The notes below the pieces were generated by a model, which did not search any database, had not been told where the DNA came from, and saw only the letters and a list, made by a program, of their open reading frames with translations. DNA of 64,000 nt from Isoetes taiwanensis (taxonomy: Eukaryota; Streptophyta; Lycopodiopsida; Isoetales; Isoetaceae), in assembly GCA_021234155.1 (NCBI GenBank), contig JAJEKV010000237.1:558001-622000 (forward strand). The letters run 5' to 3'. The position numbers were made by a program, and so were the translations under genes. Position 1 is the stretch's first letter, and each line of letters opens with the position of its first letter. This document shows positions 11,535-61,188 of the stretch, piece by piece.

Positions 11535-11688
11535 GTGATAGGAAAAATGTGTGTTTCTTTTTGAATTCTGAGTCGATGTTTTGCTGATCACACCCCTTTG
11601 ATGCTGTTTTGACGCCAGTTACCTATGTCCTTTCGTCGATTAAACTGTCCCTGACGCGTTGGTCAAAAATTGCCTCTATTCGAGTTAC

Positions 11689-11710
11689 GGGTAAAAGCAT
11701 GAAAGGGTGT
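11689..11710 (+). repeat. left terminal inverted repeat of the Sola-like element
   Basis: Begins GGGTAAAAGCATGAAAGGGT and is preceded by TTAC at 11685-11688. It pairs with 20935-20956, with one mismatch in 22 bp. The sequence just inside contains TGTACATATACATATGTACA-like palindromes. Confidence 0.85.
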
Positions 11711-11936
11711 CTATAAATGTAGCCCTTTTTGTACATATACATATGTACAAAATGCACATTTTTGGAATAACTGTCATCATGATCCGCTAGTAACTGCCAT
11801 GATTAATGGCTATCCACTACTCTGAACCCGCAATTATCGGATTTTGAAATTCTTTCCCAAATTCTTTCTTGGTTTGCCTCTCGTTCACTATCCCTTTGCC
11901 TTCTCGCTTGAATTCGATCGAATTCTTCATCTAGCT

Positions 11937-14900
11937 ATGGCCCCAAAACGCGCCCCCGGATGAGTGCTTGCTCATCACCACGCCAAGCAAGAAGCCGGTG
12001 CTTCCCGTGGGTGGATTTTTACCTCCAAGGAGTTTACGTTTGGGTTCCGAGGTGATCCAAGCCAAAGACCTCCGTGATAAACATGTAGAGGCCCACATAC
12101 CCAACCTAGAGATGGTTATGAAGCGAGGTATGGGGTGACGCCTCCAAAAAACAGACGAGGATTCAAGGAAGGGAGAATCTAGAACGCATGGAAAGATGAT
12201 TTTTTTAAATATTATGAATTGGTTTATGGCAAGAAACAGGTTACAAACCATTATATTTCTACCTATTTTGCCAGAGCATTTGCTCTTCACTTGAAGGGAC
12301 GGCTTGTTGATTGGATGGACGTGGCTAGGACCGCCAAAGATCTTGCCAAAACCCTCATTTTCGGGCGTTAAGGAGGACCCTACAGGTAAATCCTCAACTA
12401 TCAAACAGGGACATCGATTGCGGTAATATTAGAGCCCTGGGTTATTCTAGATCAGATGTTGACACAATAAAGCAGTTACTTAAGCATGGGTTGGAGGAGA
12501 AAACTAACCTATTGAATGAAGTAGAAGCATTGGAAGAAAGAAGGAGGGATGCATTGAAGGTCATCAGCCGGATTGAGGGTAGAAAGGATATGCTATCCGA
12601 AGATCTGCAGCAGATCCGCCGAGAAAATAGATGAGACAAAAGCAGAATTTGACAAATTGTCCCGGGATCCTGGCTGGAAATCAAGTTATGTTGGAGTATT
12701 GAAGTACAAGTTGGAAGACTTGGTTATGAGTAGACATGATAAAGAGCAAAGACTCTTCTAAGCTAGACATTGGTTTGCGGGGAAGCAACTAAAGAAATTG
12801 AAAGGCATGAAATCTTAATTGAACAAGCAAAGGAAAAACTTAATTGCATTGAATTGGTTCAGCAAAGGCATTCACAGATTTTGGATTTCATGGGGAGAGC
12901 AGGACCTATTGTTCTGCACCCGAGGCCCTACCCTGTAGGAGCTACTTCTATAGAGCAGTTCATCACATTCAGTTCATGTACCTGTTGTGGCCAAGGCTTT
13001 GGCAAAACTGGTTTGTTGCTGCTAGCTCCATGCAGAGATGCTTATTGCCTCTTCTGCTTGTGTTATCTGGTCCATGAAAGACAGAATTGCATAAAAGGTT
13101 GCATCTGGGATGAGGGCATTCGAATTCAGCTTGGTTTCCCTGCTGTGAAAGGTATGCATTGCTCTCAACTAATTTAAACTTATATTTCACTTAATTCATA
13201 TTTGTTATTGTAATCTGCATAGTTCTACATGTATGGCTTTCAGTGCATTGCTATTCCTTGTACATGTATAACTTTTAGTGTACATACATGTAGAAAGCAG
13301 GTACATATGCATATATTTGCTTGTTTATTGATGCTTTTATTTTTGAGCTTGGACTGCAGTTGTATCAGTTGTACATGTCTCTAATGGAGTCTACATCTGC
13401 AAATAGATGTACATGCATTTATTTTTAGAGTGCATCTGTAGATGGATTCATAAGTATGTGCATTTTTTACATATATGTGCTTTTTTTTGGGCATAGATCT
13501 ACATTCCCTAACTGGATACCTGGGTACATCTGGATACATCAGTGTACATCTGGGTACACTGATGTACCTTTATGTACATTGAGGAACATGTACATGTACA
13601 TTTGGCTATAGTTAAATGTAGTTACTTACATTTGGTACATTTTATGTACATTTTATGTACATGCTTGGCAGAATGTACCAGATATTTCTCATTAGTTCTG
13701 TTTTCATGTTCTTTTATGTCTATTGAAATTTAGATCATTTGTTTGTTTGCAGATGAGGCTGTTCCTATCCCAGAAGCAGCTTTAATGGCTGATGTTCTTG
13801 AGCCATCTGCATCGACTCTCTTCTGATTTTTCGAGCATAATAAGCGCATCGAATCAGAGACCCTCTACCTTCCAGCTCCAGATCACCAATGACATTTACG
13901 ATTACGATAATAGAACAATCTGCAACAGTGCCTCCTCGAACATGGCAAAGTGAAGTTGAGGAAATTGAGAGGATGGCACTTGAGAAAGCTAAAGCAGTTG
14001 CAGGTGCAGATGCTTCAATGACTGCTGCAACAGAAACTCCTTCATCACCAAGTGCTAAATTAGTAATTGGAGAAGCTAAGAAAGATTCAGCTTCTGTCTC
14101 AGCATCATCTGCAGGTCCCAGTTCTGGACCTATTACAGAAGAAGCTACAAAGGAATCAGATCCAGATTTTATCCCAGGAGATACCAGGGAAGAGGAAGCT
14201 GAGTTGGTAGTTGAGTCCACTCCAAAGAGGAGGCAAAAGAATGCTGGTGATGGCACTCCAAGAGGAAAAAAACAGGCAAAATCTCCAAAGAAAAAAAAAA
14301 TGTCCTCCTAAAAAGAAAAATCTCCAGGCAAAAAAGTGCCACCACCACCTAGAAAGAGGTATGTCCAAGATGAACTAATTTTGTTAAACATCTCAGATTT
14401 ATGATAATTAACCACATTTTTTTTGTACATAGGACACGATCACAGGCCGTGAAGGAAGCTGATCCTGATCCTTCTGAGTCGGAACCGGAAGAGGAAGAGG
14501 ATGAAGATCTACATGTGATAACAAATAAGGTGCAAAGAATCCACGTAAGATGCTTTGAAGCAGGTGATGAATTTACAAGGTGAGTAATATACAATTGATT
14601 ACAATAGATATATTCTTTTGCTAATGCGTTGTTGTTTCCTTGTACAGTTTAGTGAACCGACTGAAAAGGTTGGTTCCATTCACTCCTTATAGGGATTGTC
14701 CTCCTAAGCTGCACCCTCTATCTTTCAAAGTGATGTTGACGAAGTTCTGCTTGGAAGGCTGGACTTGACCTCTAAGATGGTAGATGTGTGCGTGGGAGGT
14801 AGGCTAGCATTTCAACATATTTATTTTATTTCATTCCCTAAGTCACTCATCTTATGTATTAATATGTATTACGGATTTGTGTGCGTGTACCTTTGTAGCG

Positions 14901-15710
14901 ATCTTCCATCGATTGGAAACACAAGTTTTTACTGGTTCGTAGGACACCTTCCGAATTTTGTGAATTCCCTCAAGAACATGGGGGGCGGATGCACGTAACA
15001 CTAACATAAAGGAAGGGCTGGATGGCATTTTCATTGCAAGATGCCAATACATATTTGTTCCAATTCTGCAAGGCCCAAATGTGGCATTGGCAATACTTGT
15101 GCTTGCTGGTCCGATGAAAAGCTCTTGTCCATCTATAGCTAGCCCAAGTATACAGATCCTCTCTCCTGTCAAAGGCTATGTACCCGATGCTAAAGTGGTC
15201 CAGAAGTAAGTATGAGTTTCTGTTTTAGTTTTATGATTTGATTATTCTCATATTGCAATTTCTTATGCTTGATTTATTCTCACATTGCAATTTTTGCGGG
15301 TTTCATAAGCTTGTGATCAATAACATGATGCTCGGATCCAACAGCTTAAACCATGGTAGGAAGAACTTTGATGCTCATGTGTTCTGTCCTAAAATGCCAG
15401 AAACTAGTACCAGCAACCCTTGCATGTACATTGTGGCTTACATGCACAAATTCATAGATGCCGTGGTTGATGCGACCCAAGCTCCATTTTGTAAGTAGAA
15501 CATGTTATTTTCCTATTAGTTATTTGTTGGTATAGTCCTCTAATACTTGTGCACCATCAGATGACACCCGGTTGGTTCATCGATGCCTATGCCAAGTCAC
15601 GGAGGGATCATCTAATGGAGGCATTAATTGTAGAAGGCTTAGATGAATATACAAGCGCTTGTTCCTACACTGGGGTAGATAGTCCCTTTGACTTGTTTGT
15701 GAATTACTGA
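11937..15710 (+). pseudogene. Ulp1-like (C48) cysteine protease gene of the transposon, multi-exon, decayed
   Basis: Starts MAPKRAP at 11937. A coiled-coil stretch (12424-12760) precedes a Cys-rich finger (CTCCGQGFGK ... CLFCLCYL ... CIKGC, 12975-13110). GT-AG introns fit at 13151-13752, 14358-14431, 14581-14647 and probably at 14792-14897, 15207 to about 15315 and 15492-15561. Acidic and Lys-rich linkers (13889-14580) lead to the protease: IFIARCQYIFVPILQG, then ALAILVLAG, later SNPCMYIVAYMHKFIDA, where Ulp1 proteases have HW and a D-C-G box. The catalytic Cys is kept, but HW reads NV and the Asp and Gly flanking the Cys are changed or lost. It ends FDLFVNY-stop. Several frameshifts and a stop near 12190 disable it. 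Ulp1 enzymes cut SUMO-like proteins, and plant MULE and CACTA elements can carry them. Confidence 0.7.
13225..13690. repeat. TGTACAT cluster inside an intron of the protease gene
   Basis: Dense run of TGTACAT, GTACATCT and GGTACAT variants, about a dozen in under 500 bp, within the intron 13151-13752. The same motif fills two other spacers of the element and its subterminal regions. It could be a transposase-binding array, and UGUACAUA also matches the Pumilio RNA site. Confidence 0.75.
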
Positions 15711-16240
15711 GTTTTGTATGAGCCATGCTCAGAGCTTCTTTGTACTCAATAAGTAATGAAAAAAAATTAATTTATTTGGCTCACTTACACCTATGCAAAT
15801 AACAATTGTGTAATTATCAATGTGTTTTCTCAATTGTGTAATCTGAAATGTAATTATAAATTGTGAATAGACTCTCAAGTGTTTTGTTGCCGACAGTGAA
15901 TCATCTAATTCAGGGGAGAAAGCTCATTATCTTTGACTTAAATTACGTGGTTGGGCAAGAGTGTGCACAAGAATGAAAATATTAACTCAAGATACCAAAA
16001 GATCGAAGAAAGATGAGCTTCAATTCAATATAGGAAACAGGTTTTTTTTATCCGCAGCCGGGGTTAGCATCCTTTGTTTGCATTTGTAAGAGAAGGGTTT
16101 GATGTTGCCATCGGTCTTCACTCACTTCTAAAAATCTTCTACCAATTGTGGATCAAATTTGTGATGCTTTTTCCATAAATTTGAAGTTTGTTTACAGCCG
16201 GGGGCGGTGTTGGACTCTGTCACACAAACACCCCACTTGA

Positions 16241-17151
16241 ACCTCAAAGGGGTTGTTTGTGAAGCCATTAGCTGTGGTATGGAAAGAGTACCCCAGTACT
16301 ATGGAAATACGAGTTTTGATCGATGACGAGAGATACAAATCCACGAATCGTAGGAAGCTACATATGTCCTTTCTCTTGGACACCAATATTAGGGGCAGCG
16401 GTTTGTTTGTCATGGAGCTCATTCCATGGCTTAATGGATTGAAAATGGCTGAAGATGGTATAGTGTATGTAAAAGAGCATCCAATGACTAATGCAGCCAG
16501 ATAGCATATCGAAAGCGGTGGAAAATATTTTCTCGGGCAAACTATGGCAAAGAACTTGGGTGCTCTGCTGCCTAAATTTAGTCAATATATGGAGCAAGCA
16601 ATGGAGAAACTGCCGTCATGTTATTGGCCTCTCGAGTGGCCCATTGTTGGTACAGACTAAAACTGATGTACAAATTCAAATGTTATGAATATATGTATGA
16701 AAGTTTTTGTTCATTGCACTTGAGTACTGCTTTTACTTGTCTTTCTTATTGGTACAATTATGAGTGTGTATACATAATTAAGTCAATCTTCATTTGCTTT
16801 GTAGATGAATGGACTGAAACACAAAAGACTATTATGAAACTAAGAGATAGAGTTCTGCTGCACCCAGAGGTAATAGAAACCAACACAAGCTGCAAGCACA
16901 TAGGGTTGGGGACCGATTATCGCCTCTATACTGCTGTTCCTGGACTGTGGGAAAAGGTTGACCAAATTGAAAACTATGAGGAACGAGCAACCACAAAATG
17001 TATATTGGCAGCAACTCACTTGTTGCACAACCCTTGGGGGAAGGCACGTGTCCGGGAAGATGAAGGCCATGTAGGATGGAAAGGTTTGCCGGCGGCACGA
17101 GCTATAGAAACCGCATGGACTACTGCGTTAGAGGAAGACATGATGCAATAG
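16241..17151 (+). pseudogene. unrecognised two-exon gene of the transposon
   Basis: Exon 1 is open from 16241 to about 16648 except for one in-frame TAG at 16502. It reads GLFVKPLAVVWKEYPSTMEI, LLDTNIRGSGLFVMELIPWL and, after the stop, GGKYFLGQTMAKNLGALLPK. A GT at about 16649 and an AG at 16804 join it in phase to exon 2 (DEWTETQKTIMKLRDRVLLH ... YRLYTAVPGLWEKVDQIENY ... TAWTTALEEDMMQ-stop). Only one stop interrupts roughly 250 codons, so it is the best preserved gene of the element. I recognise no domain. It lies tail to tail with the transposase and may be an accessory protein. Confidence 0.5.
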
Positions 17152-17384
17152 TCATAAGATATCAGGCTCCTACTGACATTTTGAAGCTAGGCCATGAATT
17201 ATGAGCCACGCTCACTTTCAGGTGTGTTGTATTTATGTCCACAATATAAATATATGAACCATTTGTACATGAAAACCTGTCCATTTCTTATCTTTGCCAT
17301 GACTGAAACTATTTTTAATGTTTATGTAATTCAACTTTCTTATGTTCAATTCTAATCAACTTACACTTAACAAATATCTCTGGA

Positions 17385-17480
17385 ATGTACAACAGATGTA
17401 CATAAGATGTACATAGGATGTATATATTATGTACATTGATGTACCTAATGCACTATTGAAGTAGTCCTTGTCATGTACAA
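17385..17480. repeat. TGTACAT cluster between the convergent genes
   Basis: About seven TGTACAT or ATGTACA copies in 100 bp, in the short gap between the 3' ends of the plus-strand gene (17151) and the transposase (17558). Confidence 0.7.
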
Positions 17481-17557
17481 TGAAAATTTGTTCAGTTCTT
17501 ATCTCTTATATGAACAAAGTATTACAATATTTTGGACGAAAGTACCACAGATCTGAC

Positions 17558-20500
17558 TTAGTCCAAGTCATCTACAATTGCTGGAAGTTGTGATAACAAT
17601 GTCTCATGGACTTCATATGGCAAGTGAAATGCTGTGCTTGCCCCCTTCAGCTTGTGTTTTACTTTCTTGAATGGGATTCGAACCCCAATCACAGATTCTG
17701 CAGGTACCAAAACATTCTTAGTAGGAAGCAGTTTATACTTATTGTGGCAGCCTGGGATTAGTTCATAATATTGTCCTTCAATGACACTAGTGCCAGCAGA
17801 GTAATCATTTCCATAGTCATCAATTGAATCTTCTTCCAATGCATGCTTTTCCCTCGGTGCACATGATAACATAGTATGAAACACCTTCCACATTGTCGGT
17901 GTCGCAAAAGACACAAATACATCTGAAACTCCTCTGGTGTCATCTAAACCGACCTCGTCTTACGATACAAAACATCCACATCATTTTCAGCTTCACCACA
18001 AGAGGCAATATGATCGTGGGCTCCAAACTTTTAGAGACCATTCTCCACAATGTTTAATGTTCTCACAATTCAACCAATTGAAGTTAATGCAAGCATCACA
18101 AAAGCACGAGAGTGGTCTCAGATAGCAACTTTGTTGGATCTCGCTGGGTTTATAGTTGACACGTAGAATGTATCTGCACGAGTACCGGTAAAGTCTTGCA
18201 ATTGAATGCTTGCTGCCTGTTCACATCTGTTTTCCAACCTCCCAAAACACCCTTTCACAATCCAGATTCCTTGGCCCTTAAAACCGCACAAATTTGTTTT
18301 ACTTTTGATCCACGGCATGCCATTTTGTTTTCTCTCGCTTTCGCTCTCAAGCCACAACTTTGCTATACCAGCCCTCGCCATCATGTGTGCCTTTCCCATG
18401 GCGGATCCAAAGAAATTCCATATCACTCGAATTTTATTTTCAACATGGTATCTACAGATTCCATACCATGCCCGTGCAGATTTGAATTGAGATGCACAAC
18501 CATCCGACCACACATAATGAAAGTTTATGTATCCACCTCCATTATTCTTAAGCCACCCCAAATGTAATTTAAAACCATGTTGCACAAAATGAGTGTCATG
18601 CTTTCTGTCACTGTTTTTTTAAGCTTACCTTCTATTTTCATCATTGAAATATGGACCAAAATACTAATTTGATCAGGATTCCAATGCTCGGATTGCACTT
18701 CTGTCCATGGTTTCAATGTGTAGTTCTCTGCAAAGTCAACAACAGACAACACACTATTATCCGGGAGTTTCTCAACACATCTTTTAAACTGTTTGCTCTG
18801 CCAGTGTGCTGTAAAGTTATGATCTGTAAACTTAGCAAGCTGATTTTTCATGTTCTTTAACAAAGCAGATGCTTTGTCATTCGATCAACTAATCTAAGCC
18901 GGATGTACCTTTTTGGATGGCTCATTGACATATGCATATACTTGCCGATCCACATTAAATTCCATCTTCCTCGTTTTGGGCCGGATGTCGAATTTCTTCA
19001 CTCCACATTCATCACATTCGCCTTTGATGCATTTTAGTTTATGCCATTCATCCAGTCACAAATTCTCGCAAAACTGTTGACCTCCACAAGATACTAACAT
19101 TATCAAAAGTCTTCTTGTTTGCTTGACATACTCCATTGTTTTTCTTTGGGATGCAACCATTGCAGCAGCAAGTGCAATTAACATGTAGGGATCTCCTCAT
19201 ATCATTGAAGGCCTTTAAATACGGATCCGCTTGCTCATGTTTGACACAACAACATGTGTTTCTCTCCTTCAATTTCCTTATGCAATCGGGTTTTGAGATA
19301 CTGAACTGTCAAGGCGAATTTTGGTATCAGGATTCTGATATACAAACTGTTGATAAAGCTCAGACTGCAATAACAAAACCATTAAAGACCATGTTAGCAA
19401 AATGATGTCGGCAACCAGATGCCAAAAGAGTATTGAACTATACTATTGTACAATTAATGTATGGTCTATGTACATAAAATGTCCATCCAACAGTTCCATC
19501 GACTGTTATCAGACATCTAATGTACATCTAATGTAATGACCAACAGTTCCATCGACTCATTCTTGTACATCCAATGTACATCCAATGTACATCCAGTGTA
19601 CATCTAATTAATGTTCCAATATTAGTACATCACATTAATGTTACAATATTAGTACAACTAATGTACATATGTCAGATTTGTTTGGCTTCATTACCTGAAA
19701 GTACACTAAAATGTAAAATGATGTAATTTTGATATTCAAGTACATGTAAATGCAGCTGCATGGACATGTAAGTGTTAATGGATGTACATCTAAAAAGTAC
19801 CTAATAGCACATCACTGCAAGATTTTTACGCCATTGTGTAAACAATGTATAAATGTAAACAATGTAAAATGCAATACATTTCATGAAAACCATGTGTATT
19901 CATTAACGAGGTCACTTTCGGAATGTAACTAGAATGTCTGAGGAAGAAAGTCATGAAAGAATTTTGGAAGAAAACATAATCTCCAAAACTGAATTGATTC
20001 AATTACAAGAGCAAACTGTGAGATATCAAGGTATTGTATTGCTTGTGTTCTCCTCTTCATGACATCTCTAACCTTTGGTGAAACTTTGGTATTGTCAAGC
20101 CAAAATTCACGAACGACATTTGATTGAATCATCGATTCTATTTGATCTTGGCATCCTTCTGCCAAAGCCCATACATTTGCTCCACTTAATGACATTATCT
20201 TCCTTCTTCTTGCTGCAGCTTTGGATAAATTTCTTGGTTGTATCTTTAGCAATTTTGAAGAAACATTCTTGTTTATATCTCCTTTTTTTCCAACAATCAT
20301 TGATAATGATGAATGTTTTGCAGCCAATTTATCTTTGCTATTAGCGGAATTTTACTTCTTGAAGCCCATCTTTCAAGTTTCGATCATTGATTTCATAACA
20401 ATAACTTCGGAAGGATTTCCAATTATGTGTTCGAAAACAGGGAAAAAGTCGTCATCTTGCAACAAACGATCACAAAAACTAATCTTTGATCCGACGGACG

Positions 20501-20639
20501 GCGTTTGCAAAGAATCGAGGATGCAATCCACCGACTGTCAACACTTATTTGCTTTATTTGTTTTGTGGCATAACACCGGCCAATGTCGGCATACTTACTT
20601 TTTAGAACCATCACTTCCATTGGAATTCTCACCCTCCAT
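17558..20639 (-). pseudogene. Sola-like DDD-type transposase, intron-containing, decayed
   Basis: Exon 1 may be MEGENSNGSDGSKK (20639-20599), ending at a GTAAGT donor. Downstream, in several frames: ISFCDRLLQDDDFFPVFEHI; then RRKIMSLSGANVWALAEGC and VVREFWLDNTKVSPKVRDV; a Cys cluster KERNTCCCVKHEQ with HVNCTCCCNGC; VVDFAENYTLKPWTEVQSEH (first Asp near 18736); YVWSDGCASQFKSARAWY (second Asp near 18503); NFFGSAMGK, with the expected HGKG...D region frameshifted (a GTHDG reading near 18380); CDACINFNWLNCENIKHCGE; and a C-terminal tail ending DDLD. This order matches a recurrent eukaryotic family that I associate with Sola transposases. Stops and shifts are present and the HGK His reads Met, so it is inactive. 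Confidence 0.65.
19440..19810. repeat. TGTACAT cluster within the transposase gene
   Basis: More than ten TGTACAT(C) copies, several in near-tandem (CCAATGTACAT repeated around 19570-19600), between the Cys-cluster part and the N-terminal part of the transposase, probably in an intron. A local duplication of CCAACAGTTCCATCGACT also lies here (19487 and 19543). Confidence 0.75.
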
Positions 20640-20934
20640 GAACAGAATGAAATTGATTTGTATTTCTTGTAGATTCAATTGGCATGTGTTTGCTTCTGGA
20701 ATTCGTTCGGTGTTCGTCCTGTGAAAGGGGGGAATTTCGGAAAGGGAGGGACGGATCCATTCGAATTGGTTCGGTGGTTCGGTGGTTAACCAAGAATTTC
20801 GGGGGGAATGTCAGGGATGATCTTGCAATCATTGCATATCTGACACAAAATGACAAACCATAGTATCTTGATGTACATCTAAAATGTACCCCAAAAAAGC
20901 ACAAATTCGTCCTTCAATTCAGTACGATGTACGT

Positions 20935-20956
20935 ACACCCTTTCGTGCTTTTACCC
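20935..20956 (-). repeat. right terminal inverted repeat of the Sola-like element
   Basis: Reverse complement reads GGGTAAAAGCACGAAAGGGT, differing from the left end at one base, and is followed by TTAC at 20957-20960, identical to the tetranucleotide before the left end. Confidence 0.85.
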
Positions 20957-21190
20957 TTACCTTTAAAAAACCTTGGAAACAAGAGATCTCCTTCTCTCCA
21001 AGAACTTAACATACCTAATCCTAAGAACCTATATATTGGTTCCTAACTAGCTTAATCCTCCCACAAATAGGCCAACTTACATACTAGCTATGGAATTGGA
21101 ATAGTTCAACTGAAGTTAAAGTACCCTATAACTAACCAATCTAACTAGTTAGACCATGGCCAGTCCAATGATTTGGTCTACCAAAGTTAT

Positions 21191-31978: not shown

Positions 31979-34620
31979 TCAATGAAGTCTGGCAGCTTTT
32001 TTGGATTTAAGCCGAGTATTAGCTGCAGGGGTATTGTAGAGCAATTTGTAATTATGTTTGCCTTTTTTCTTTTTGATCTTTTTAGCAGTAGAGTGATCAA
32101 CAGAAGTCTTATCCTGATGAGCATTCAGGTAGATATCATTATCCCAGAGGCTATCAGTGTTTGATAAGTGGTGTGAGAGGGCATTCTCTTTGTCAGGGTC
32201 TAAATCTTCAGAGTCCATGTCTACAAACAATTTCTCATAGTGAGAGCATTGCCAGAATTTTGATTTGCAACAATCAGGTTGTGTAGTCTTCATAGAAGTA
32301 TTGTTAATGGAATCAGGTATAATATTATCTCTATTAGGATTATTGACCATCAAATTAACTTCAGAATTTATAATGGAAAGATCTTGCCTGGGATTAACTT
32401 GCTGAAGGTGTGTTGAATCTGGAGATGCATGTTGAGTAGAGTCTGCTTGTTTCTCCTTGTCATGTTGGCATTGTACTCCTATTATCTCGGTTTGCTCTTG
32501 GGAATCTGCACACCATAAATTTTGTTCCCAAACATTTGATATATCCTTAGCCTTTTCATATCTGTCCTTCAAGTCAACTGACATATTTTCAGGGGATTCT
32601 GGCACCTTGTCTGTTACCTTTTCCAACAATATGTCTGCCACTATAACTGACTCTAATTCCTGTAGCTGCTGAGCTATCTCAGGGGAAATGGCTGAAGTTT
32701 TAGATGAGTGAGGAGTTGAGTGTGAGGTATCATCATAGTCAACATGCGAGGGGGGGCCGCAGATTCTATTTCGTGAGAGTGTAGTGGTGGGGGGATAGAG
32801 TGAATGATTGATGTAATAGGGGCCAGAGTGTGATGGGGAGTTGGCAAGTTGAGACCTTTGCATATAACATCTGCATAACTATTAACATCTGGATCATCTG
32901 ATATATCTGCAAGAATGGCAAAAGAGTTTGACACTTCTATGTCACCGAGGTCACCGGTCAATATCTGCAAAGATGTTCATTGTCCCGATATCCATATTTT
33001 GTGAGGAGACATATGCATTTGTGGAACCATGTTTGTATTTTTCTTCAAGATATGTTCAATACCTTTTTCATTAATTAATGAAACTCCATTCAAACCTTCT
33101 GTCTCAGTTATGTTTTTTGATGTAGTTGAGACCGAGACCCTTTTGTTTCCAGCAGGGAATATCCCCAGAAGTTTTGCTTGATAAATGTTGATGGCTGGTG
33201 TTGCTCTTAGAATCCTTTTAGGATATTTGATAGGGTCCCTGTGGAGATCAATTCTTGGAGGCGTATGGTGGTGCCTTGCCTTTGCCATTGAGCATGTTTC
33301 GTTGTGCTCAATGTTTGCCTTGTTTATTTGTGAAACACCTTGAGATGATACTTTTGTCGACTCAATTTTTGCCCGGTTTTCGTTTTGAGTTGGCTTTTCC
33401 ATATCTTCAACTAGTCGATTTTCCTTGATGGAAATTCCTTTGTTTAGAACCTTAATTCCCATATGCTTGTCAGAAGTTGATGTTCTGAAAGGTGGTTGGG
33501 AATTATTAGGGAGATCATTATTTTTCTGTTGTGCCAAGTTCCTGACTTCCCTTTGTTTCTGAATTCTTCTAGCACTGCCATTTACTTTGCTCCATTCTTT
33601 TTGAGAAGGTGGAACATTTTGAACTGGTATGTTAATGCCTGTTTGTTTGGATTGCTCAGAGATAGCAATTCCTTTTTCCTGAAGATCATTATGATTTGTT
33701 TCCTTGTCATGAAGGAAACATTCAATGCCAATCTTATGTCTAGAGTTACAACTCTGGCAATGATTTGGTAAACCTACCCATCTAAGTTGTAAGGTAGATG
33801 TCTTTCCAAAGAAGTCCAAGAATGATATGGCAGTAGGGATGACTTTGGTGATGTCCAGCTGTATGAAGCATTTGGGAGGTTTGAATGAGGAATATTCAGT
33901 GGTAAGGTAGGTGCCAATGGAGTTAAAAATGGAGGAAAAGCAATCCTCATTCCAGTAAATGGGACTTAATTCTCTCATAGTGACAGAAGCAATATGATAT
34001 TTTCTGAATTCGTTCAGAGGCAGGGTGGCATTCCATTTTAGGAAAGAAACTTGGAATGTATCACGTGTAGTGAAGCCAAGCTTGATGAGATAATTTGAAG
34101 TCCCTGGAGCAGCCACATTCCACCATAATGTAAGGGAAATTTAACCCATAAATAGAGTTTATGACAATACCCTTGTGTAGCCTCAAGAGATGGTCCCAAA
34201 GCTTTTCTATTTTTAACCCAACGTAATCCACTTTGACAACAACAAAGAACCTTGGATAAAGATTCAATTTTGGAAGCAATCAAAGGTGAGTTCAGGTGAA
34301 TACCTCTGAAAAGCTGGATATTTGTAGGGGCTCTTGATTGTTGGTATTTAAACTCGGAGGCAAGTTGTTCATCTGAGATGATTGGTTGTGCTGGTCGTGG
34401 AAATAAAGGTAAAGGTACCCCATTTGCATCCAATCTTGGTAAAGTTTGGGATCCCCTTTGGTCCAGAGCTAGAGTGTCCCAGTTCGGAGCAAAATGGCTG
34501 AAATGATGCATTTCTTTTGACAGAGGTTCTTGGTTAGCAAAATTCCCAAATTTAATAATTTTTGATGGATCAAGGTGGTAGCCACTTAACTGAGAGAGAA
34601 GAGCGTCCCTTTGAGCCAAT
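31979..34620 (-). pseudogene. L1 ORF1: DUF4283-like RNA-binding domain plus zinc knuckle (broken)
   Basis: Plant L1 ORF1, the RNA-binding partner of ORF2. The N-terminal part reads AQRDALLSQLSGYHLDPSKI. After a frame change, FTTRDTFQVSFLKWNATLPL and ITKVIPTAISFLDFFGKTST precede the knuckle CQSCNSRHKIGIEC, a CCHC variant. A long polar C-terminal region follows (for example SKKAARLH at the end), crossing several frames from 33600 to 31979. It ends 34 bases before the ORF2 start. The 5' end lies at the element border, so the true start codon is lost. Confidence 0.75.
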
Positions 34621-53129: not shown

Positions 53130-56100
53130 GGAAGAACACTTGTACGCCTTCACAATGCGACTACGGACATCGCTAAGCACTTGCGTATCTGAAAAGAGCT
53201 GTCCCTTGAAGATGAGGAGATTTCATCTCTTCCAGATGGACCAGATGATCCAAGCAGATGCTAAGTGGAAAGCCCTCTTTGCCAACTTGTCCCAAGAGCT
53301 AGGATAGACTGACAATAGGACCTGTTGACTATTCAAGTCACAATGGAAAAGACTCAGAAGCCACTGCCAAGCAAGTCGAACATGGTGACACAAGAAAAAG
53401 CAGTGCCAATTGTCTCATCCCTCTGCCGGCAAAGAGGGCAAATCTCAGAGACTCCTGGACGAAATCGATGAACAATAGTGTTTACCCGCACGCATCTATG
53501 AGTGATCTGCCACCATAAAATGGATAGCTTAGGATGAAGCAATTTATCCCATACCCATCGCCAGACTGCTTTACGATGAGGCTCGGGGATAACTAAAGGT
53601 CACTTTGGCGATGGAGGCAACACCTCAGGATGAAGCAGGACCACATACATCAAGTGCACCAGGTGCTCCTCCTTAACACTGCCATGAACCACCCAGAGCT
53701 GGGGAGCCACGTCTTGTGGGTGTGGAGGAAGCGTAGCAGCTACTTTTTCCCAAATGCCCCGGACCCAACGAAGGAGAAGGAACTTCAATCACGTGAACTA
53801 TCTTGTCTCATTATACCATGCAGATACCGTGAGCACACCTGCTGCTCGCCACCGACGTTGCGTCAATGGATGGACAGAAGAGACCAGGGGACAATCTGCC
53901 TGGCCGTCACCCAAAGGGATCCACCAACAACGGGCTGTAGGATCTGTGTGGGCCATTGGATGGAACTGAAACAAAGTGCGCACAGTCTCCCAAGCAGCTA
54001 GCAACCCCTTGAGGAAAGGAGCTGCATTAGGATATGGAGAAAGTGGATAGAATAATGCCCATGGGAGGAGAGGCTTAATGGATGGAGAGCCAAAGGAAAT
54101 GCACATCTGTAAAGACTGGTGAATGAGACGCAGACCTGGAGAATTATCAGCATTATTGAGAATCCGCCATATGAACTTAGAAATCAACACCTTGCTCTGG
54201 AGAAGAAAGTGAATCATCCCCAGCCCCCACAAAGTTTAGGCATAATGCACTTCGCCCAACTAACTTTAACATCAGCTCCTTCTTCAATGCCACCCCAGAT
54301 GAAGTTCCTGACAGTACGAACAATGAGCTGCATCTTTGTCTGCGGTGTCAGCAAGATGGATGCCATGTAGACATGTGTACCACTCAAAACTGACTTTGCC
54401 ACAGTTACACGACCAGCCATGGATAACTTAGCCGTGGACCACCAGAACAAATGTCTTTTCAACCCCTTAATAATGACATTCAGCGTCTCGGATGAGAGGT
54501 GTATACCAAGCTGGAATGCCTAGAAGTTTAGTTGCCTTCCCATGAGGAAGAGCCTTCTATGGAAATGCAACCCACGGAAGGCGGCCTTTGGAGAGTCTAG
54601 GGCCTGAGGCGATACACTTTTGCCATCCCACAAAGATACCGAAGCCAAAGAGAAGGCGTCCAACAAGGAAATGGCATTCTCGCAAATTACGCTCATCGCC
54701 ATTAAGAACAAGAAAGTGTCATCGCATGCCGATTCTGGATCTCTTGTGAACCATTATTCATGGGAAGACCATGCGGGATGCCTTCACGCACCTTGCATGA
54801 AGAATACGAGAAAGAATCTCCGCCACAATTGTAAAAGCGGTGGTGCCAAGGACAGACCCTAGCGAATGCCACGTCCCACGAAAAAATGTTGATGGTTCTC
54901 TTTGAAAAGAACTGAAGAACAGCGAGAATAATGAAGTTTCATAACATTTGTTGTGGCTGGGCACCAAAACCAAGCGTAAAGGCCTTTGCTCCAGGGAAAC
55001 TCCGATCAACAACTTGTCATATGCTTTTGCAAAATCCAGCTTCAAGTATACAATGGGGTAACCATGCATTCTAGCCCAATAGAGATCCTCATATGCTGCT
55101 GCCACATTATTCAAGATACATCGGCGAGGTAAGAAACCTGACTGCGTGGAAGAGATGGACTCGGTAAGCATGCCACAAAGCTTCTGAGCAAAAGCTTTAG
55201 CAAAGATCTTGTACACTGAGGACAACAAAGTAATGGGGCGCCAATCTGAAATGGAAGAGGGATCCTTATATTTTGGAATAAGGGAGATGCAACCAGAGTT
55301 GAAGATTTTGTCCAGAAGCTCAGCTGGATCTGAAATAATACGCCCATCCTGAATCTGCAGAGACTGAAGAGATGCAGCTAGCTTTCTTGTTTTGGCAGCT
55401 CTGAAGAAAAAACCTGTGCACCGGTCTCCCTTCTTGAACCATTGCAACCCAACCTTAATGTGAGCAAAGTGCACCTATTCAGATTCCATCTGCCGAATGG
55501 TATACAAAATTTGCTTCTCCACATGACCATCTGATGGGGCAACAGACTTGCATGCCTCAAGTTGTCGATAAAAGCCGTGAGAAGGCTCTCCGGTTAGCGA
55601 AGCCCGTTCCCGACCCCAACCTTTAGCAAAAGACTTCCGGCGCAGCGAAGCGAGCATCAACAATACACGCCATGCTTGTGTGTCGAGAGAAAAAGTGAAC
55701 CGCGTCGTCTCTGACCCGCCAAAAAAATCATCATCCTTCAAGAAAAATTCTAAGGCGGTAGTGCACAAAAAAGAGTGTCATGAATCTTGTCATCACTTAA
55801 GTAAAATGAATTTTCTTCAATAGCTTTCGATCCCGAGCTTTTGTCTATCCTATCGTAATATGGCGAGAGAATTGTTATCGGTCATTGTGCGGTCGGCTCG
55901 AACCTCCCTTTGTATTTTTATGTTGTAATTCTCTGCAAAATCAATTACAAAAATAATGGTGCCATCTTTGATATTGTCCAGGCAACTCTTGAATTGCAGG
56001 GCCTGCCATCTAGACCTGTAATTATGTGGCACAAATATCTTCAATGTGGAATACAGGTAGGAAATAAAAAACCTTCACTGTCGTTCTTTTGTAAGACAGT

Positions 56101-57045
56101 CTAAGAACTAGCTTTGGTTCTTTCATTTTTTTTCCCCTTGCCAGTTCAAGTCTCGTCTTATGTTGCAGTTTCAGACTATATCCCACCAGCTGCCTTAGCT
56201 TTCTTACTTTTGTTTCCCTTCTTGGTGGCATTGGATCTTTTCTTTCTGCTGCCACCTGGTACTTTCTTGGTAACCACGATGTCGCAACTCCACCCGGCAT
56301 CTTCTGTCTCCACTGGAATCTATAACAAGGTCCGCAGCATAAAACATAAGATTACTGCAAGTTGAAAGCAGAAAAGCAGAAGTCAGTGGATGTCAGCACA
56401 TCTCAGCTCGTTGCAGTATGCATTAAAGAGAGTTTTACCTTTTCAAACATTTTCCATTCAAGCAAGAACTCATGATCCTCTCTTTCGCTTGGACATATAG
56501 GAAGACTTTGTATGCCACAACTCTGACATTTTTGCATCAAGCAGCCATGTTTATACCATTCTTCAACCTCGACCCTCGAACTTCATTTGTTTGAGTCATA
56601 TGTGTGTTGGCTGACTAGACACTTCTTGCCAGGTCCACAAACCTCACAACAACAACACTTGCACTCTTCCCCATGAAATCCAGTTTTCGCTGATTTTAAA
56701 GCATTCAGACCTACTCTGGCATACTCCAACTTCATATAGTATATGCAACAACAGGTTTTCCTTTCTGATACTTTCTTTACATAAAGAGGTTTCAACTTCT
56801 CGAAAGCCTTTAAGCAAACAGGGTATTCAGGGTGTGCCTTTTTGTATTGTACCAGCCTTTGCCGAGTCTGCGGCCGCCACCAGAACATTGTACTGCCTAT
56901 TGATTACTGCAGCAGCTTTGTAGGCATCCTCTTTCTTGCATTTATGCGCTTGCAAACAAATGAAATCTGAGTCCCACCTAGTCAGGGCCATGGACAACCT
57001 GCTCCTTTTAGTAGGGGAGGAGGCAACCCCCCGCACATTCTAGGA
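53130..57045 (-). pseudogene. L1 ORF2 of the third LINE (endonuclease cut by a Sola-like fragment)
   Basis: The start region reads VRGVASSPTKRSRLSMALTR and WDSDFICLQAHKCKKEDAY, the endonuclease N-terminus with the catalytic Glu apparently replaced (LQEHK expected, LQAHK seen). After about 50 codons it meets Sola-like sequence (56888-55850). The LINE resumes at 55768: FFGGSETTRFTFSLDTQAWR, then VGLQWFKKGDRCTGFFFRAA. Reverse transcriptase: GCISLIPKYKDPSSISDWRP, SGFLPRRCILNNVAAAYEDL and VYLKLDFAKAYDK (motif A). The YADD box is degraded to CDDTFLF near 54690. Then KLSMAGRVTVAKSVLSGTH and VRNFIWGG. The zf-RVT tail reads LHPKLSILWWQITHRCVRVN and CPLCRQRDETIG. Many shifts. Confidence 0.8.
55850..56888 (-). 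pseudogene. second Sola-like transposase fragment
   Basis: Same protein family as 17558-20639 but a different, diverged copy. In order: AHPEYPVCLKAFEKLKPLYV, KKVSERKTCCCIYYMKLEYA, ECKCCCCEVCGPGKKC; then HGCLMQKCQSCGIQSLPICP and EDHEFLLEWKMFEK, followed by an intron-like GTAAAAC at about 56440; a Lys-rich linker; and WQALQFKSCLDNIKDGTIIF with VIDFAENYNIKIQREV, the first catalytic Asp. It ends just after that motif, so the WSDGC and HGK parts are absent. It replaces roughly 200 codons of LINE endonuclease. No terminal repeats or target duplication were found, so it arrived by rearrangement or by an insertion whose ends are lost. Confidence 0.6.
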
Positions 57046-59739: not shown

Positions 59740-61188
59740 TATATGCAATGCAATTAAGAGGGAGAACCATCTGCTCTGTTGCATCATCAGCACCTCCTCC
59801 TCCTCTTCCAAGAGCCAGGTCTAAGTCCAAAGGCCCCATTATCCATAGCCAGCCAGAAAATACTTCTTTGGGAGGCAAACATGTCAGATCTATGGAGGGA
59901 GGTTCATGGATCATGGAACAATTAAATCAGGCCATAGATGCTATAGATTCTTAGCATTAGAAAGCCTTCTTTACATTATGCCATACCTCTGACCACTCTT
60001 AGAAGGTGGTTGAATGGCCAAACTAAAGAGAAATTTGGGGCAAAATCAAAGGGATTGACAAAGGAAGAAGAGGAAATCCTTGTGAGTTGGTGTATGCCTC
60101 TCATTCTACCTGGATCTGTTAAGGATTTTGAAGGTAGAGGTGTAACTTTGGATCTGTTAAGAGAACGAGTTGGCGACATGTGTATTCATAGAGAAACTAG
60201 TTTTAAAGATGGCCTACCAGGTAACAAGTGGTGGAGAGGTTTTAAAAGTAGACACCCTAAAGTTGCTTTAAGGTCTGTTGAGTGTGTGGAAGTGCAAAGA
60301 GTAAAGGCTATGAATTCTACTAACCCGGATAAATTTTACTCCACTTTCAAAGCCTTGTACAATGACTTCCATTTTGAGGCATCTTTCATTTTGAGGCATC
60401 TACCATTTCGAACTGTGATGAAATTGGAATTCAGGATGGCCATAGGTCTAGTATGAGGATATTGACAAGGAAAGGGATTAGAAATGCCAATTTGACCATT
60501 CCCAAAAATAAAGAATGGCTAACTGTTTAAGCTGTATGAGTGCATCTGGTTTTAGAATGCCTGGTTTGTATGTATTTAAGGGAATAAAACTTAAAGATAG
60601 AGATTTGATGGTGGATGTGGCATGCTTGGTAGCGTTTTAAACAACATTCAAGAATTTGAGAGCTAGGTACATGCATAAAGGTAAGGTTGGTGAGCCATCA
60701 AAAGAGGATTTGGCTACCCTCGTATCTAGTGCAATTGTGGAATCTTTGACAAGGCCTAACATTGTTGCAGGTTTTGCAAAAACAAGAATATGGCCCTTCA
60801 ATGACAAGGTTGTACTTCTTGACCCTTATGCTTATAATGTAGTGACTTCGAAGATGAATTAGAAGATCTTGGTAACAATGATGATGTCGTTGCTCAAATT
60901 ACGCAAAAGTTAGTTGAAAATATGATGGCTCATGATGGTGTGGGTGTTGCAGCAGAAATTGCGCATATGCTTCCTCGTGAACATATTGTGGATATTCCAA
61001 ATGCTGTCCCTAACGAAGAACGGGTCAGAAGTATGCTTGTTCCTAATGCTGCCCCTGAACAAGTGCAAAATGTTGTTGCAGGTGTGCAAAACCGTGTGCA
61101 AAATGTTCTTGCTGGTGGGCTAGCAAAAGCTAAGAGATCTAAGTTGTTGGATGCCCTTCAAGGTAGGTTGTTTATCACTTCAGATTAG
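59740..61188 (+). pseudogene. pogo-like (Tc1/mariner) transposase, internally deleted
   Basis: N-terminal psq-type helix-turn-helix: WIMEQLNQAIDAIDS, then after a stop and shift IRKPSLHYAIPLTTLRRWLN. CENPB-type helix-turn-helix: LTKEEEEILVSWCMPLILPG and GNKWWRGFKSRHPKVALRS. The DDE core keeps its first Asp region (ISNCDEIGIQDGHRS near 60405), then RILTRKGIRNANLTIPKNKE and ASGFRMPGLYVFKGIKLKDR. The segment that should hold the second and third acidic residues is missing; the frame passes to FKNLRARYMHKGKVGEPSKE and the C-terminal signature VAGFAKTRIWPFND. A tail with VQNVVAGVQNRVQNVLAG repeats ends at 61188. Stops and deletion make it inactive. Confidence 0.75.

Follow-up and report, generated by a model that had tools for sequence, protein, structure and literature searches.

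Within a 64,000-nucleotide stretch of the Isoetes taiwanensis genome (contig JAJEKV010000237.1, positions 558,001 to 622,000 of the forward strand; hereafter the window), a 9.27-kb segment at positions 11,689 to 20,956 is probably a single cut-and-paste DNA transposon of Sola-like type, which was inserted with a 4-bp target-site duplication and has since decayed. The element comprises a broken gene for a DDD transposase and two further broken genes, A and B, the first of which encodes a putative Ulp1-type protease. Its features are as follows.

11685..11688, no strand: left target-site duplication TTAC, read from the sequence
11689..11710, plus strand: left terminal inverted repeat, 22 bp, one mismatch to the right end
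~11937..15710 (ATG at 11937, stop at 15708-15710), plus strand: gene A, broken, multi-exon, from a three-frame reading
12977..13102, plus strand: RING-like Cys-rich finger of gene A, from the translation by eye
13259..13661, no strand: TGTACA array 1, in a gene A intron, by box count
14760..15500, plus strand: Ulp1/SENP-like stretch of gene A with degraded catalytic motifs, from a PDB match to SENP7
16060..17151, plus strand: gene B, broken, start approximate, from a three-frame reading
17264..17479, no strand: TGTACA array 2, in the spacer separating the convergent genes, with an 11-bp period in part, by box count
17558..20660 (5′ end approximate), minus strand: DDD transposase gene, broken, from 42 homologues and tblastn pieces
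19447..19788, no strand: TGTACA array 3, within a presumed transposase-gene intron, with an 11-bp period in part, by box count
20935..20956, minus strand: right terminal inverted repeat, 22 bp, pairing with the left end
20957..20960, no strand: right target-site duplication TTAC, read from the sequence

The ends of the element are of the GGGTA type, as read at this copy. An earlier reading of this DNA from its letters alone (the sequence-only reading) had described 22-bp inverted repeats with one mismatch and an exact TTAC on both flanks, and both descriptions hold: the two repeats agree at all but one of their 22 positions, and a TTAC lies immediately outside each. A search of the window for the end pattern, allowing three mismatches at most, matches the two element termini only, while shuffled windows give a mean of 0.00 matches (100 shuffles), ruling out a chance origin of the ends. 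The same pattern gave 0 matches in the viral contigs scanned, and an Rfam scan gave 0 matches.

The minus-strand gene encodes a DDD transposase with an integrase-like fold, the fold being modelled for a relative. There are 42 homologues, including one from Taxus, and of the 15 relatives aligned, 14 have the three catalytic Asp residues. In the present copy, the three Asp codons are all present (18737-18735, 18504-18502 and 18382-18380), each in a frame of its own, and the tblastn pieces of the gene fall in frames −2, −3, −2 and −1. The predicted model of the relative has its best alignments, among the best 1000 Foldseek matches, with integrases. At E ≤ 0.001, Foldseek gave 0 matches against PDB and one row against BFVD, which, at a TM-score of 0.08, is not meaningful. 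Pfam scans of 10 of the 42 relatives returned a family above cut-off for none of them; therefore, annotation by Pfam alone would miss them. As judged by these scans, Pfam has no entry for the family of this transposase. Scans of viral and genome contigs confirmed no relatives of the transposase. A second relative, truncated and more distant (33-48% identity in short tblastx pieces), lies at 55768-56855 on the minus strand; no copy of the element ends and no relatives of genes A and B were found with it in the window. It adjoins what appears by eye to be a LINE reverse-transcriptase remnant (~53200-55700, minus strand).

Three gene bodies lie between the ends in the convergent layout that had been proposed: the two plus-strand genes (~11937-15710 and ~16060-17151) run towards the minus-strand gene (~20660-17558), and the 3′ ends meet across ~17152-17557. 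All three are readable only across frameshifts or stops; therefore, this copy contains no intact gene and, on a reading of its sequence, can make none of the three proteins intact. Poor sequence quality could in principle produce such frame changes, but four stop-to-stop open reading frames of 258-387 codons elsewhere in the window argue against it.

The element probably belongs to Sola, an assignment made by fit to a published description: its size, the length of its ends, its 4-bp duplication and its DDD transposase fit that description (PMC10741241). Specifically, the 4-bp duplication (TTAC) is read at one copy, and the DDD transposase is recognised via its relatives, the Asp codons of this copy being out of a common frame. 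The ends, the TTAC and the Asp triad of the relatives together support the earlier proposal that a 4-bp duplication and a DDD transposase belong to one DNA transposon. Sola has been recorded in Physcomitrella and Capsicum (PMC9033089) and in Ceratopteris (PMC6890710). Sola has also been placed in a clade with RNases H1 (PMC3985635), while the model of the transposase relative aligns best with integrases, a point that the best-1000 Foldseek list cannot decide. Alternatively, the element could represent an unnamed DDD superfamily outside Sola, with a 4-bp duplication and with accessory genes, including the protease-like gene, that are its own and not captured. Consistent with this alternative, all 10 relatives scanned lack a Pfam family above cut-off, the Sola assignment draws on a description and not on a reference sequence, and the Sola2 duplications reported in PMC3627910 are AT-rich (AWWT, ATAT, AAAT, ATTT), TTAC not being among them. 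The fit of size, end length, duplication and DDD transposase to the Sola description nevertheless makes an unnamed superfamily unlikely in our estimation.

Other superfamilies were considered and rejected. A C/DxxH signature between the second and last acidic residues marks hAT, P, MuDR, Kolobok and Dada (PMC9587614); it is absent from all 14 relatives in which the three Asp residues were located, of 15 examined, and these five superfamilies were rejected. Ginger elements have TGTNR ends, and Ginger1 has a CCGG or CCGT duplication (PMC2836005); Ginger was rejected on the GGGTA ends, the TTAC duplication and the absence of an integrase family from the Pfam matches of the 10 relatives.

The element is also distinguished by the hexamer TGTACA, with 32 occurrences inside it (3.45/kb) against 10 in the remainder of the window (0.18/kb). 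A first-order model predicts 3.15 occurrences in the element, and the largest count in 200 runs was 9. The best 6-mer score of the element is 98.0; of 13 windows of equal length taken in 3-kb steps, none overlapping the element, 10 have a best score of 7.1-12.5 and the remaining three, all poly-A, of 33.6-40.8. The gene A and B side holds 16 boxes, the spacer six and the transposase side 10, and a spacing of 11 or 22 bp is frequent. None of the 32 falls in the homologue-covered transposase stretch (1742 bp; ~0.001 by chance), and 31 of 32 fall in the 33% of the element assigned as non-coding, although these intervals were drawn after the box positions were known and the p-value is not independent. 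The count for the homologue-covered stretch makes no use of these intervals. The boxes may be bound by the transposase or by a host factor and provide a concrete cis-element open to testing.

The TGTACA signature points to a common history for all 9.27 kb. Because the ends match and the signature lies on both gene sides, the whole 9.27 kb is most likely one unit, in line with the single mobile unit that the convergent arrangement had suggested. Two nested or fused insertions could also give such a segment, but the boxes on both sides and the lack of an internal copy of the end pattern argue against them. A further possibility is that genes A and B are pieces of host genes captured by this copy alone (transduplication), passengers without a role in transposition. 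Transduplication is common in plant transposons (PMC2528002), both genes are broken, and neither has a relative elsewhere in the window by blastn or tblastx. However, the boxes extend over the gene A introns, the spacer and the transposase side but are scarce beyond the element. This suggests that the parts have been together for longer than a recent capture would allow, and we regard chance capture as quite improbable. Gene B matched no Pfam family, and its last exon is predicted to be helical, at low confidence, by a single-sequence model (pLDDT 66.5).

Gene A reads, in order, as a coiled coil, a Cys-rich RING-like finger, an acidic linker and a Ulp1-like C-terminus, with introns bearing GT..AG-like borders. 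The coiled coil has only sub-threshold Pfam matches, and the finger region matched 0 Pfam families. Resting on a reading of its motifs, the C-terminus is likely a Ulp1-type protease domain, albeit a putative one. In particular, the catalytic Cys is in frame and the His-Trp is present in a neighbouring frame only, while the Asp was not recognised. The best PDB match of a 222-residue stitched reading is SENP7 (E 0.085); with the His-Trp taken from the neighbouring frame, just two matches are obtained, both to SENP7 entries (best E 0.0069), and the match spans the stretches around both the His-Trp and the catalytic Cys. Furthermore, small profiles of two Ulp1 motifs each rank the gene A site second among 2094 open-reading-frame fragments, and the highest-scoring pair of the two motifs anywhere in the window, on either strand, falls in this stretch in the expected order.

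Several results weigh against this assignment. A shorter query from the Ulp1 stretch loses SENP7, and a hand-typed, near-exact reversal of the query matches an unrelated chain at E 0.0014; therefore, such E-values prove nothing alone. Of 30 shuffled windows, 26 have a score as high for one motif and 18 for the other, and the two-motif pair score is reached in 41 of 300. Pfam scans of gene A gave no match to PF02902 (Peptidase C48), the family with which the sequence-only reading had proposed to confirm the protease; 14708-14998 has a sub-threshold match to DUF6831 (E 0.0034), and the Ulp1-like end has 0 homologues at E ≤ 0.001. A Ulp1-like stretch is present where the sequence-only reading had put it (15000-15710), but it is weak, as seen from the two SENP7 E-values and the unconvincing controls. 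Gene A might instead carry another C-terminal domain, with the resemblance at 15.0-15.5 kb due to chance, an explanation compatible with the transposon part of our interpretation. The missing C48 match, the lack of homologues and the unconvincing controls favour it; the position and order of the window's best motif pair, together with the recovery of SENP7 as best PDB match with and without the frame change, the second covering the Cys region, do not, and we consider it somewhat unlikely.

Taking gene A as a Ulp1-type protease gene, we propose that the transposase would bind the short ends, and perhaps also nearby TGTACA boxes, and would cut out and reinsert the whole 9.27 kb. Gene A would supply a protease for SUMO or ubiquitin-like proteins that aids transposition, as suggested for the Ulp1 domains of other transposons, or might shield the element from host control, and gene B may encode an accessory protein. 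More speculatively, and with rather low expectation, Sola-like plant transposons may include a stable lineage in which a RING-finger/Ulp1-type protease gene travels with the element together with a third gene, and in which TGTACA boxes, commonly spaced by about one helical turn in introns and spacer, form a built-in binding code for a factor of the element itself or of the host.

Elsewhere in the window, the sequence at ~59900-60900 (plus strand) resembles, by eye, a broken pogo/CENP-B-type transposase, and a 387-codon open reading frame at 32980-34140 (minus strand) has a sub-threshold match to DUF4283 (E 0.0015) and a zinc-knuckle-like stretch; we take it to be perhaps a plant LINE ORF1.

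Elements of related composition have been described. Sola2 elements with captured Fanzor1 genes (PMC3627910) resemble the present element in their 4-bp duplication, short ends (12-21 bp there, 22 bp here) and several-kb length with an additional gene, and Sola in general (PMC10741241) shares the DDD transposase. Compared by description only, the Sola2 chimeras differ in their extra gene (Fanzor1, versus a protease-like and a further gene here), in their AT-rich duplications (TTAC here) and in their amoebozoan hosts. ULP genes occur in MULEs (KAONASHI, melon, rice, grapevine) and CACTAs (PMC2528002), which are likewise plant cut-and-paste transposons, and in KI-MULEs the ULP gene is reversed, lying, as here, on the strand opposite the transposase. 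Unlike the present element, these carry MuDR/Jittery or CACTA transposases; the relatives of the present transposase lack the C/DxxH of MuDR, and the duplication here is 4 bp. Ginger1 shares an integrase-like transposase fold, a 4-bp duplication and, in the transposases of several families, a Ulp1 domain (PMC2836005), but has a Gypsy-type DDE integrase with the Ulp1 domain fused to it, whereas the present element has a DDD transposase and a separate gene, and the TGTNR ends and CCGG/CCGT duplication of Ginger1 differ from the GGGTA and TTAC here. No report of a Sola and Ulp1 pairing was found in the open-licence papers searched, and the pairing may be unreported so far. Because Sola2-Fanzor1 elements and ULP-bearing MULEs and CACTAs are already published, the suggestion of a new structural class was overstated. 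ULP-type proteases are on record for MuDR-type, CACTA and Ginger1 elements. An association with a Sola-like DDD transposase would add one more and, if true, would lend weight to the view that transposition benefits from the removal of SUMO or ubiquitin-like tags; the pairing is a variation on an already known kind of transposon cargo.
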